Source of the DNA: Owenia fusiformis
Taxonomy: Eukaryota > Annelida > Polychaeta > Sabellida > Oweniidae
Direction of reading: 5' to 3'
Assembly (NCBI GenBank): GCA_903813345.2
Contig: CAIIXF020000001.1
Span: forward strand, 16,451,915 to 16,515,914
DNA: 64,000 bases
The position numbers and the translations under genes are program-made. The notes beneath the pieces were generated by a model that was not told the DNA's origin, ran no database searches, and was given only the letters and a program-made list of their open reading frames with translations. Position 1 is the first letter of the stretch, and each line of letters opens with the position of its first letter. Shown here piece after piece: positions 38,202 to 57,727 of this stretch.

Positions 38202-38207
38202 TTTATT
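38202..38207 (-). terminator. Poly(A) signal overlapping the RidA stop codon
   Basis: The minus strand reads ATAAATAAAG at the end of the CDS, so an AATAAA hexamer overlaps the last Lys codon and the TAA stop. If used, the 3' UTR would be only about 15-30 nt. Confidence 0.4.
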
Positions 38208-41200
38208 TATCCACTATTTCACCCAGTACAGCAATGGCTTCTATTTCAACCTTGGCTCCCTAAAAATTAAAAAATTAAATAAAACTATATTATTAAATTT
38301 CCAAACATATTGATACTGTCCGATGTACATTGGTTATGCACTTGGAGATTTCTGATACAAGATTTATCTCGGTAAAATATCAATCCACTGAAAAATTATG
38401 GATTAGGATCCAACCTTGGCATTTTTTGAAATGTTAGGCTTGTTTTCTTAAAAGAGGATCTTGTTTTTCTCAATTTAAATATATCAAAAGTTTTCTCTAC
38501 ACTATCAATAACTCCCGAAAGGGAGATGGATGGGTATTGAAATACGATAAAGTTAAAAGACACATATTCCATGTTATTTTCTCATTGGGAAAACTCATGC
38601 TATCCATTGTTTTCAGCTTAATTTGGTCATCGGAAATTGATATGTTCAAAATTAGACGTTTCATACTACAGAAGAAATTTTAGACCCCTTGTTGAATAAT
38701 CTTTTCATGCAATAAAAATCAGAAAAGGAAGATCCCCTTTTGAGTAAATAGGTTAAACATTTTGAAAAAATTGTTGATATGGGGTCCCTATTCATAATTT
38801 TTCGAATTGTTCACTTGATATTTTTATCATCATGGGGACTTGACTTGCCATACTGCACATGGACCTTTAACGTGGAAAAGTTGAAAAGTCCCTAAAACAA
38901 CAGGCGGTTTGTGAAAAAGAATGGTGAAAATCGCCTATTGCCTGCTGCTAATGACTTCATGACACAAAGGTTATTTTAGACATTTTTGAAATAAAACATT
39001 TTTTGAAAAAAAAATTCAGCTTTTTATCTAAAAGTTGAAGTTTTTTAATCAACTAATCCACTAAACAGTGCAAGACAAAATATCTTTTGGAGATTGACCA
39101 TGATGATTGACACTATTTAAATCATAAAATATCATACACTTTAATGTGCCACTCAAATCGTTTAGCATATCAAAAATGTTGCATCCATTATTTAGATCCA
39201 GAAACATGGCAGCAATTCAAAATTATTATCACACAGTGTTTACATGAAATACATATCACATTCACATTACCTTTGGCAATCCAGCCACTGCAAATGCTGC
39301 TCTTGCTGGATATGGCTCTTTGAAATCTGCAAATCAAAGAGGCTGTCCTATGTACTTATCCTATGTACAATATGTTATCAATAAGCAATAGATAAAACAG
39401 ATACTATTTAAGTATATAATGTTTAACATTATTTAAGTATTTAATGTTTAATGCGAACAATAATATATGTGTAATATTGTAATAAAATATTAATCATTAT
39501 TATATCGATCCCTGTCATATTCCTCACTCTCTTATTGGTCCATGTCCTACACGTGACTAAAAAATAACTAGCGATATTCAACGGAAGTCACGTGACTTCC
39601 GGTGAATATCAAATGATATTCAACGGTCATGACTTATACATACATATTATACGGCAGTACTAACAAGGAGTCATCTCAGAATGGACATTTGAAAAACATT
39701 CCCAACCTGTTTCCCACATGGCCAATACTATGAGTATGAACACAATGGTTCCATTTTCATTGACCCATTGCAATGTTACAATTAATTATAATGTTAACAC
39801 GAAACCTTAAATTAAAATACTAAAAGGACCTTATACACCCTTCATTGGGATCTCCCCATGGGAAAAAATAATTCATCTGATTTTTCAAAATGAGTATTCT
39901 GCTTCAATTATTACATTTATATGCACACTAGTATCTTGTTGACCTATATTCAGCACTGTATTGATGTATAGGCCACTTATTAGGGTCATAATCCAATCAT
40001 GAAGTGTAGAGGCATATGATTCCAAACCAGGAAGTATTTTTGTGTCTGTCAAAATCCATTTACATCCTACGCATCCCTGCATCCTATCCAAATATTTTAC
40101 TACATAATGAAATATAATAGTATAATCTTTGGTTTTACAAACTTGTATGATATTTGATAAGTGTAAAAATTGTTTTTGGAGCATTTTTCTATAGCCATTT
40201 TGTAGGGGAAAAAATGATGAAAAAATGTACAATCTTTTAATTTTAAGTATGACCTGAATCGATTGCAAACTTCATATTGGCACATTTGATGAGATAGACC
40301 ATTTGTGTCGTATTGTGAAATTATTAAGTTTGCAATCGATTCAGGTCATAGTGTATTTTTGGTATTTCTGTGATAATCAATGGAAACCAATGGCCTCTAT
40401 TGGGATCTGCTGATATCCTCATGTTAAGTCACTGGTGCACAGCCCCATGTAAGTCAATACAACCTTACTGAACGAAATGATCCCTATCTCAGCTTATGTG
40501 TGTCCGAGCACTTTAATATTTTCCAAAGTATTATATGACATTTTATTCTTCATGTTACACCTACAAATGATTCATTTTGACCATAGGGATATTTGCCAAT
40601 AATTGCACCTTGTCCTTTGGGAGTTGATATTTATTGACTATATAATTTGGTAGTTGATATTAATTGTATTTATTGTTAAAATGTTAGAAGAAATATAAAT
40701 GTATTTCAATGTTAACATATGACTTATTTAATTATAGAAGATGTTATGACAGTGAGATAATAAAACAAATATTTAATTCTATTTTCGGTGAATACCTATT
40801 ACACTTTCACAAGAATATCACTTGTGAAAGATGCACAGGTATTCACCTCAATAGAATTAAATATTTGTATATTGTTACTGTACATTGTATTTCAAGTTTT
40901 GACAAATTGGAGAAATGATATTCTATTTTCGTAATTGATATTTTACTTAATATGGTAATGTATGAAAGACTCATTTGAAAAATGAGACATTTTGAAGATA
41001 TTATTGGGATTTTGAATTGAGTTCTATGATTTTGCTTACATTTACATGACTGTTTTGGAATTTCAGATATTAGTCATTTAAATTAATGTGGATATCTACG
41101 AATGATGGTGATTTTTGGTGTTTCAAACTTATACATGTACTGGTGATATTGCTTTTAAGATGATCAATTTAGCAATACATGTACTTACATTGAGCATAAA

Positions 41201-44200
41201 TTGTGTTGACAGTTGGGTAATCCTTCATGTCTGTCAACAGAACAGTGGACTTCACAACTACAAGTAAAAAAAACATAATTGTGCAAAATTAAAACAAATC
41301 CAACTAAAACATATAAACATTGACTGGAAACATACTATTGATACACAACTTTTTCCTTCTATATGCCATGTTATTTTCAAAGCATGGCTTCAAAATAACC
41401 ATGGCTGAAACTCCTAAATTTAAATGTTCAAAAAGTATACCTAGAATATGAATGTATTTTTCTATATAATATTGCAATTTGATTGCTTAATTTTTAATGT
41501 TTGATTGACTTTGACTGTAAAATGGACTGTGCATGCAATATATGTATACCAAAAAAATATATACACTGTCTGACTATATATAAGATGTCACTTACTGTTT
41601 GAGAAATTACCACCAACACTGGCCAAAACTGCTTGCATATTCTTAAATACCTAATAAAAATTAAATGATTACTCATGAGACGTAAAACTCTTAACATTGC
41701 ATAGTATATGTTTTGTAATGTAATGTATGTTACATTGCAATCTTGTGGCTTTGATTTTACATTGTAATTTATAACCTTTGGACTTTAGTATATATATAGT
41801 TATAATACCTTTATTGTACTGATATTATCATGAAAGTAAAGAAAACATAAACCAGTGTTATAAATTAATACATAAAAATATGATGGAATTGATCTACAAA
41901 CACAATAACATAACTTGAAAACAGGAACAATGACAGGACATTGGAGGAACACTCTATGTTCCAGTGCACTAAGTTAATTTTGCAAAGCAAAGTACTGGAT
42001 CATTCTCAATGTGATGAGTAAGACGCTTACCTGATGTGCCTCGGCCTCTACTCCACCCTCTGCCATCACCCCAGATGTTGGTTCAAGTCCTATCTGTCCA
42101 GACATATACAATGTCTGATCTCACGGGATGTCATCGCCTGATTTGGTCAATGTTAGGGAGCAGGTCGTTTTTACAATAAATTTCAATATTTTCACACAAA
42201 ATATTTTTTTGCTGAAAAACTGCTCATTCGCAGAGAAAATGTACTAGCACATGCAATGACAATGTCAATCACGCTTCTGTACGAAATTCGGCGGAAGTCT
42301 TTTATAATCTAATACGAAGTTACTAAAAAAGGCGCGAACGCCCTACACTCAAAATGATCGTTTTTCCATTATAACTTTTTAACGTAATTTAACGAAGGCT
42401 TCTAATTATTATCCAAGATAGTCTAAATACCGATTAAAATATTTCTTACTTCAAACAGATACGCCGTCTTTTATTCAATTTTTTTAAAAATAATAAAAAA
42501 TAACTCTTGTCAATGTTAGGGAGCAGTCAATGTTAGGGAGCAAAATGATTGGGGCATGGGGCAAAATCCCAAAAGGTCCCACTAGGTCCCAAGCCATGTT
42601 AAGTCTATGGAGGTCCCAACTTGTCCCATTGGTGTATACCGGGCTTTAGAGTATCATTAGCAAGTGGTACACATATAACAGAGATCGGTTATATACTGCA
42701 TTGTCTGAGTATTGACAAATTGAAGTATACGTGTAAAAATCTACTATCATACATGTAACTGCGCAATGAGCCCTTCATAGCGTTTGTGCCAGCTATCAGG
42801 TGATACCCGGTCGTAAAGATAAGTGCGAGACTAACTCTCTTACTTTAATACTACACTGGTGATCCACTCGATTACGCTGGTTACCAAAACGAACCGTTTT
42901 GGTAACAAAATGTCGGAACATCCGGAAGGTACGATTTTCTCGTTTCCTTATTTTACACGTTGTAGGCAGAATTCCCACGACATTTTTTAACACAAACGTG
43001 TAATAGTATTATATGTTTAAGAAATTCAGGTACATATTTGCGAACAATTAGTTCAGAAGACAACAGAATCGTCGATTTACTTCCTCACTTAAGTTACATA
43101 AACGGTTTGGGTTAAAAGTGCAGATCTTAACTGTTTTTCGAAAAACCGTTTATGTAACTTAAGTGAGGAAGTAAATCGACGATTCTGTTGTCCTCTGAGC
43201 TATTTTTTCGCAAACATGTACATTTTCTAAAACATATGATACTGATGCACTTTGTGAGAAAAAACGTCGTGGGGATTCCGCCTACAACGCGTGATTTAAG
43301 GAAAAAAGAAAAATCGTGCCTTCGACGTTCCGACATTTTGTTACCAAAACGGTTCGTTTTGGTAACCAGCGTAATCGAGTGGATCACCAGTGTACTAGGA
43401 AAATATCAAATCATAGAACTGAAGGATGTCGGAGATTTCTCAAGCCTATATCAGTTCAGATAATTTATCATCCACAATTTAGGATTGTGAACTGATGACA
43501 TCATCAAAAAGTGTATATAACGATACATCCATTCATTTACAGTTAGAGGTCAACGAATAAAGAAGGAATGGTTCGCATCTAAATATTTCTAAAACGAACG
43601 TAAACAGGATTTAGCTGAAAATAAAAAATGCAAAATAACCTTTTCAATGATTTTCTTACAATTTTAACGCTTTCCTCCCCAAAGGGTATCAAATAATCAT
43701 ACAAACAAAATTGTTCAGTTTATAAATGCCTTACATATTTTAAATGGCCATTTGCTACATTTTTAATATTCTGATAAAATCATTTTGCTCCCTAACATTG
43801 ACTGCTCCCTAACATTGACAAGAGTTATTTTTTATTATTTTTTAAAAAATTGAATAAAAGACGGCGTATCTGTTTGAAGTAAGAAATATTTTAATCGGTA
43901 TTTAGACTATCTTGGATAATAATTAGAAGCCTTCGTTAAATTACGTTAAAAAGTTATAATGGAAAAACGATCATTTTGAGTGTAGGGCGTTCGCGCCTTT
44001 TTTAGTAACTTCGTATTAGATTATAAAAGACTTCCGCCGAATTTCGTACAGAAGCGTGATTGACATTGTCATTGCATGTGCTAGTACATTTTCTCTGCGA
44101 ATGAGCAGTTTTTCAGTAAAAAAATATTTTGTGTGAAAATATTGAAATTTATTGTAAAAACGACCTGCTCCCTAACATTGACCAAATCAGGCGATGACAT

Positions 44201-44951
44201 CCCGTGGATCTACCATTACAGCTTGACTGAAAATAGTTTATTTTTATAAAAAAGAAACGATTCAGTGTCCGGGTAACGTAGTCAGAATCAGAGAAACAAA
44301 TGGGAAATAAAAAATATCAGTTATTTTCATTATTTTTTCTAGTCTTGACAAATGAATAGGACCAATCATCTTATGAGGAAAATCTGACTGGCGTCCAGCG
44401 GTGCAACTAAATATAATTTCCAAGGAGGATTGGCTCCCAGAGTGCACCACCGATATTCTGTCCCATATATGGGTATGTCGTAATTCAAAATTCGAATTCA
44501 AACAGCCGCCATTTTGTTCACTTCAACATTTAAATCGTGAATTTTGGTCTTATTTCCAAACGAAAAATTCCAAAACTCACAAGAAATGATCGAGATATTG
44601 GTTCGAATCTTTTGAACTGTTTATTTTGAATTTATAGTCGGTTTTAATTTCAGAAAATAACGACATTTCGACGTTTTCATTGTTGGAAAATATCGAGTTT
44701 CGATCCTGGGAGCCAATCCTCCTTGTATAATTTCTGTAAAATAACATGGGCGATAATTAGTAATGAAATGAAATTGAAATGAACTGTATCGTCAATTTAG
44801 CCTTTATATTCAAGTTCAGTGTTTTCCTCACATATACCCCGTCACCCATGCAATTTTAAGAAAGATTAAGATGAAGTTGTCATACTCACTTATAAGGGCC
44901 AACCGCCTTTGGGGCACCGATCGTGTTTATAATCCGTCTTATACACGCCAT
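38203..44951 (-). CDS. RidA: RidA family enamine/imine deaminase, 6 exons, exon 2 split by a transposon
   Basis: Exons in order: 44890-44951; exon 2 in two parts, 44207-44226 and 42031-42121; 41596-41650; 41189-41257; 39271-39326; 38203-38259. With the insertion and one target copy removed the CDS is 405 nt, 134 aa. RidA hydrolyses reactive enamine/imine intermediates made by PLP enzymes such as threonine dehydratase. Hallmarks: GPYNQAV, YMSGQIGLEP, GGVEAEAHQ, VKSTVLLTDM, PARAAF with the active-site Arg (106), and VEIEAIAV near the C-terminus. The 2,085-bp element at 42122-44206 interrupts codons V-M-V-D-Q between duplicated AGATC copies, so as sequenced exon 2 cannot be read through. Other exons are intact, which points to a recent insertion, a single-haplotype allele, or removal by splicing or excision. 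The start lies 141 bp from the GH31 stop. Confidence 0.9.
39826..40615. mobile_element. Same element, copy B, in a RidA intron
   Basis: A 790-bp copy of the element at 1289-2065, again bounded by AAA and TTT and with the same internal hairpin. It lies between RidA exons 5 and 4. Differences from copy A are scattered substitutions and a few short indels. Confidence 0.8.
40766..40867. repeat. Near-perfect long hairpin (47-bp stem, 7-base loop)
   Basis: CAAATATTTAATTCTATT at 40766 pairs with AATAGAATTAAATATTTG ending at 40867, and pairing continues through GGTGAATACCT and CTTTCACAAG to the loop AATATCA. Only a few mismatches. It lies in a RidA intron. It could be a tiny MITE or the source of a structured RNA. 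Confidence 0.75.
42122..44206. mobile_element. Fold-back transposon inserted in RidA exon 2
   Basis: A 2,085-bp element starting CACGGGATGTCATCGCC and ending with its inverse, flanked by perfect 5-bp repeats GATCT (42117-42121 and 44207-44211). The arms, about 430 and 420 bp, are nearly identical inverted copies and contain several GTCAATGTTAGGGAGC motifs. The centre holds a smaller nested element. No transposase ORF. CAC-type termini with 5-bp duplication recall Transib-like elements, though the targets are not GC-rich. Confidence 0.9.
42854..43392. mobile_element. Smaller fold-back element nested in the RidA insertion
   Basis: A 539-bp element with termini CACTGGTGATCCACTCGATT and the inverse, flanked by perfect 5-bp repeats TACTA (42849-42853 and 43393-43397). 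The arms of about 255 bp are inverted copies with GGTTACCAAAACG landmarks. There is no ORF of note. It has the same 5-bp duplication and CAC start as its host element. Confidence 0.88.
44421..44725. mobile_element. Small TIR element with 9-bp target duplication
   Basis: A 305-bp element with perfect 20-bp termini CAAGGAGGATTGGCTCCCAG, flanked by TATAATTTC (44412-44420 and 44726-44734). It lies in RidA intron 1, close to the disrupted exon 2. Non-coding; the 9-bp duplication suggests MULE-type mobilisation. Confidence 0.88.

Positions 44952-45094: not shown

Positions 45095-57727
<12,633 letters not shown>

Follow-up and report, generated by a model that had tools for sequence, protein, structure and literature searches.

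Exon insertions by transposons are common as a class of mutation, and RidA is a near-universal, widely conserved metabolic clean-up gene. Transib transposons prefer GC-rich targets. Protostome RAGL transposons, in the passage cited, leave 5-bp target duplications and have a terminal inverted repeat (TIR) consensus beginning CACTWMCAAAC (PMC7204232). Galileo and Tetris, which are fold-back or long-TIR MITEs, are characterized by long near-perfect TIRs and variable, internally deleted interiors. For Rid proteins, a conserved arginine is stated to be essential for imine hydrolysis (PMC4433059), and for the Mediterranean mussel gene presence-absence variation via hemizygous structural variants is described (PMC7653742). 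Here we describe a RidA gene of Owenia fusiformis with a fold-back element inside a coding exon. The mutation adds one more example to a familiar kind; what is unusual is the gene it struck.

The window, i.e., the whole stretch of 64,000 nucleotides analyzed, lies on the first contig of a genome assembly of 498 Mb and 525 contigs, which we searched throughout. Its RidA gene runs on the minus strand from 44951 to 38203 in six exons and has 134 codons once exon 2 is rejoined:

44890–44951, minus strand: exon 1, with the start codon at 44951, placed by an exon-level protein match
44207–44226, minus strand: upstream piece of exon 2, with one copy of a 5-bp duplication
42031–42121, minus strand: downstream piece of exon 2, with the other copy
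41596–41650, minus strand: exon 3
41189–41257, minus strand: exon 4
39271–39326, minus strand: exon 5
38203–38259, minus strand: exon 6 with the stop codon, its end computed from the coding length of 405 nt

The exons that are not split contain no stops and have GT/AG borders, and in this respect the gene is as clean as an earlier note on this DNA had described it. The rejoined protein scored 161.8 bits against TIGR00004 (cut-off 106.25; residues 6–127), as a member of the RidA subfamily does, and matched PF01042 with an E value of 1.2e-39. Residues 3–131 aligned with PDB 1oni at E 3e-47 without gaps, also across the junction; 1oni is listed as 14.5 kDa translational inhibitor protein, and we take it to be human RidA. 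The PARAA motifs of both proteins are aligned, and the arginine therein is presumably the one essential for imine hydrolysis. By this gapless alignment, PARAA included, the 134-residue product resembles the RidA/UK114 subfamily (TIGR00004, PF01042, 1oni); the difference is that the coding frame of the assembled allele is broken by an insertion.

Adjoining RidA, open coding pieces lie on the minus strand at about 45370–46250, which presumably resemble a glycoside hydrolase family 31 gene. Within intron 1 of RidA, at 44421–44725, lies a MITE of 305 bp; its ends read CAAGGAGGATTGGCTCC, and an apparent duplication of 9 bp, TATAATTTC, accompanies it. At least 39 other places match about 307 bp or more in and around this MITE at 97–100 per cent (40 of 2,491 candidates scored), and this likeness points to a second very young family within the RidA gene.

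Exon 2 is interrupted by a fold-back element of 2,085 bp at 42122–44206, with ...TCTGATCT/CACGGG at the left junction and CCCGTG/GATCTACC at the right junction. Its parts and surroundings are:

42122–44206, no strand assigned: non-autonomous fold-back DNA transposon, 2,085 bp, with terminal inverted repeats CACGGGATGTCATCGCC...
42122–42550, plus strand: left TIR arm, 429 bp, with two private changes
43778–44206, minus strand: right TIR arm, 429 bp, identical to the consensus of 43 right arms
42117–42121, no strand assigned: left copy of the target site duplication, GATCT on the plus strand (AGATC on the minus strand)
44207–44211, no strand assigned: right copy of the target site duplication, GATCT on the plus strand (AGATC on the minus strand)
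42854–43392, no strand assigned: nested fold-back element of a different, abundant family, 539 bp, with ends CACTGGTGATCC

The earlier note had held that exon 2 is intact on either side of the element and that the break is explained by a 5-bp duplication; both copies are indeed perfect GATCT. We also reproduced its rejoined product, i.e., removal of the element and one duplication copy yields V-M-V-D-Q-T-L and the 134-aa protein with the TIGR00004, PF01042 and 1oni matches given above. A 5-bp match at a single site would occur by chance with a probability of about 0.0017; we regard the repeat at RidA as a true target duplication because all 43 exactly ended copies of the family show one (see below). 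As assembled, the RidA reading frame is not intact. It comprises 33 codons, i.e., 27 native residues followed by 6 foreign ones, and then a stop. The element hence truncates the RidA protein after 27 native residues in the assembled sequence, which most likely leaves this allele null or close to null.

The two 429-bp arms of the element are identical at 427 of 429 positions. Near either end of the element, a 17-base unit, GTCAATGTTAGGGAGCA, is present as a single copy (42146–42162 and 44166–44182), and the inner edge of both arms has two tandem copies of it (42509–42542 and 43786–43819); the unit is a candidate transposase binding site. Compared with the second-longest sibling (L035), the RidA element lacks about 2.7 kb between its left arm and its inner part; it is non-autonomous and derives from a longer element by internal deletion. 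The nested element is flanked by the duplication TACTA at 42849–42853 and 43393–43397 and matches its own reverse complement from end to end at 85 per cent. At least 39 other copies of it were found at 96–99 per cent (40 of 2,294 candidates scored). Among the 42 siblings fetched, none contained a match to it longer than 60 bp, and in 36 of them the exact 45-bp empty site was present (two of the other six differ from it by 1–2 bases, and in four the region is more divergent or absent). The nested insertion therefore postdates the branching from the sampled siblings; it may have occurred either before or after the element landed in RidA.

The first 31 bases of the RidA element occur 97 times exactly in the genome, compared with no occurrence of the reversed pattern used as a control. 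From these exact ends we paired 43 elements of 1,163 to 4,674 bp, a set thus chosen for exact ends, and a perfect 5-bp target duplication was found in 43 of 43. For 11 of the 97 ends an exact partner was missing; three of these found an imperfect partner with a duplication check and one more by mismatch search. Among the three pairs with one imperfect end the duplication was perfect in two (L048, and L051 with L046) and absent in one (L052). With up to 3 mismatches allowed in 24 bases, we counted 162 ends, i.e., the family comprises on the order of 80 copies. The shortest pair of family ends among the matches listed spans 583 bp (G000:C6:20767996-20768578). Duplications of fixed length beside inverted repeats in many copies are the mark of a cut-and-paste TIR transposon, and this family shows them. 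Its target preference is a palindromic Y-ATWAT-R with A or T at the center in 42 of the 43 copies, and the RidA target T-GATCT-A agrees with it at the flanks and at the center. We joined the flanks of all 43 copies and scanned 10 of the 43 site-spanning peptides with Pfam, which were picked by eye with long ones favored and included RidA. Only the RidA peptide passed the Pfam cut-off (E 1e-6), with nothing above the cut-off for the other 9 of the 10 scanned. Within this sample of 10 peptides, RidA is hence the exception as an exon insertion.

In the two longest copies of the family (L031 and L035), the longest open reading frame has 189 codons and encodes a C2H2 zinc-finger protein with four Pfam stretches. 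Both versions, at positions 2246–2812 and 1845–2411 of the respective element, are 99 per cent alike, and relatives elsewhere in the genome share 39–56 per cent identity. This reading frame may be either a gene of the element or a captured host gene. A Pfam scan of six other open reading frames from family copies and one from a locus with a zinc-finger relative (L049) gave no match. Two such loci, L049 and L050, were considered as autonomous partners and rejected, as their DNA does not match L031, L035 or the RidA copy; inverted repeats first suspected at L049 are copies of a CAAGGAGGATTGG MITE. Overall, no transposase was found in the internal sequence of L035, with the zinc-finger protein search, from TIR ends with up to 3 mismatches, by Pfam on the scanned reading frames, or with RAG1. 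The RAG1 profile PF12940 gave nothing in the genome at E ≤1, and likewise nothing in 14 control genomes.

In its 5-bp duplications (43 of 43 exact-end copies) and a TIR starting with CAC the family recalls Transib or RAG-like transposons, to which we nevertheless do not assign it. After CAC, its TIR CACGGGATGT departs from the protostome RAGL consensus CACTWMCAAAC, its target preference is an AT-rich palindrome, Y-ATWAT-R, unlike the GC-rich one of Transib, and there was no RAG1 match in a search that lacked a working control. With Galileo and Tetris the family shares long near-perfect TIRs and variable, internally deleted interiors. Galileo belongs to the P superfamily according to its abstract; we do not claim our family as a member.

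The age of the insertion was assessed from private changes relative to the consensus of the 43 copies. In the RidA element we counted two such changes in the 429 bp of the left arm, none in the 429 bp of the right arm, and, over the 815-bp segment on the right (813 bases compared), one such change plus two small indel events. For an inner stretch of 287 bases, 32 siblings gave a near-full-length match; 17 of these show a single base difference and no gaps relative to the RidA copy, and the rest show more. The sum is about 4 such changes over some 1,530 bases, or 0.26 per cent, which is an upper bound because some changes may stem from an unsampled source copy. The arms of the siblings carry at most 5 substitutions each, except for the misaligned left arm of L039, where 193 differences are attributed to a nested insertion. 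Five copies (L006, L012, L017, L020 and L026) showed 70–157 differences in the 815-bp segment and were excluded from the age argument; we put these differences down to orientation, deletions or insertions, and orientation failed for L006, L012 and L020. Judged from these counts, the insertion appears to be very recent and the transposon family very young and recently active. The proposal of a recent transposon insertion in a RidA exon has thus gained ground, namely by the siblings, the uniform 5-bp duplications, the near-identical arms and the private nested element. At 0.26 per cent, however, about one change would be expected in the 405-base coding sequence, a value from these counts and not from a mutation rate, and intact exons are therefore no proof of selection. 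As an argument that RidA still matters, clean exons are hence weak, for the insertion is too young for visible decay.

A search for a second intact RidA gene, which had been proposed as a check, found none with three exon-by-exon queries (PF01042, the rejoined protein and TIGR00004). The rejoined protein gave six places in the genome at E values up to 10, all of them exons of the window gene. PF01042 matched solely a gene on contig C8, which from features of its open reading frames we take to be DPH6, with RidA-like domains; the window RidA itself was missed by this profile. TIGR00004, at E up to 10, hit the C8 gene three times and also listed two window RidA exons (E 0.09 and 0.56) and one place on contig C9. 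This weak C9 place (E 3.6) was rejected as RidA, as its 4.2-kb surroundings gave no tblastn RidA match at E up to 10. Because the window exons were listed at E 0.09 and 0.56, a similarly built paralogue should have appeared, whereas a divergent or oddly split one might escape. We also looked for an allele without the insertion. The left flank (41500–42121) was found at one place genome-wide, the window itself. For the right flank 43 matches were listed, of which the 42 besides the window start at query position 201 or later (40 of 2,491 candidates scored) and lie within the intron-1 MITE or at its edge; for exon 2 and the neighboring intron, the window stood alone among the matches listed, again with 40 of 2,491 candidates scored. 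An empty allele would be expected to be absent from the assembly with a purged haplotype and with a fixed insertion alike.

The earlier note had also suggested that the insertion might be tolerated and removed at the RNA level. We considered single splices over the element, combining donors of at least 0 bits by a simple consensus with every AG acceptor that lies 60 bases or more downstream and no farther than 42061. Two of these splices keep the frame open through exon 5, 44214 to 42114 with the loss of 3 residues and 44214 to 42093 with the loss of 10 residues. Their common cryptic donor scores 0.5 bits, whereas the five real donors reach 3.2 to 7.1; the cryptic acceptors score −2.3 and −0.6 bits, whereas the four real acceptors that were scored range from 0.9 to 7.1. 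If exon 2 (106 nt) were skipped, the frame would shift. The suggestion hence stands insofar as in-frame cryptic splices exist, but their sites are weak by consensus score; RNA rescue of RidA may be possible and is poorly supported.

A non-autonomous cut-and-paste DNA transposon has thus inserted into exon 2 of the only RidA gene found and duplicated 5 bp of target. We consider it probable that the insertion is recent, makes a null allele, segregates and was retained by a collapsed assembly. The internally deleted element would have been moved into exon 2 by a transposase supplied in trans, and the assembled allele would have lost RidA function wholly or nearly so. The insertion would segregate, with intact RidA on other chromosomes of the species, and the collapsed assembly would have happened to keep the filled allele. 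We favor segregation, in keeping with the single haplotype considered in the earlier note, in view of the young age of the insertion and the wide conservation of RidA. Were the insertion instead fixed or near fixed, the species would live without canonical RidA, and this would agree with the assembly, where neither a second RidA nor an empty allele was found. Moreover, Salmonella without ridA grew as the control in nutrient broth without the inducer used as stress (PMC4433059), i.e., the gene is not strictly essential there. The literature searched showed no knockout of RidA in an animal, and we make no claim on animal viability. However, so young an insertion would have had little time for fixing in a large population, and we regard fixation as unlikely.

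Very doubtful, in our view, is that the element is tolerated and spliced out as a new intron. The two donor and acceptor pairs that hold the frame open through exon 5 speak for it, and the 429-bp hairpin could draw the ends together; against this, donor and acceptor scores lie below those of real sites, an argument of limited weight since it covers single splices and one real acceptor, at 0.9 bits, is weak as well. Fixation and a newborn intron in a housekeeping gene, taken as one alternative, still have a minor chance. The element is repeated in the genome, and a repeat copy could in principle have been misplaced into the gene during assembly. Such an artefact is most improbable, as the flanks are the correct halves of one exon, exactly joined by the 5-bp duplication, and the RidA copy is set apart by private changes and by a nested insertion that brought a duplication of its own. 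That the half-exons are normally separate exons, with the element in an old intron, is scarcely credible, since, read through the break, the codons align with PDB 1oni without interruption, and the repeat flanking the element is a target duplication as long as those of the siblings.

A recent insertion that likely segregates bears on how a single reference assembly is read, for it can show a conserved gene as lost. The Mediterranean mussel likewise exemplifies that a marine-animal reference may hold or lack genes through segregating structural variants (PMC7653742); the difference is that here one conserved gene is split, not absent. The locus also draws attention to a transposon family that is very young, makes 5-bp duplications and showed no transposase in the open reading frames scanned. 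If the insertion were fixed, O. fusiformis would be a natural test of animal life without RidA; if it segregates, the species would offer a clean natural null allele for studies of reactive enamine damage.
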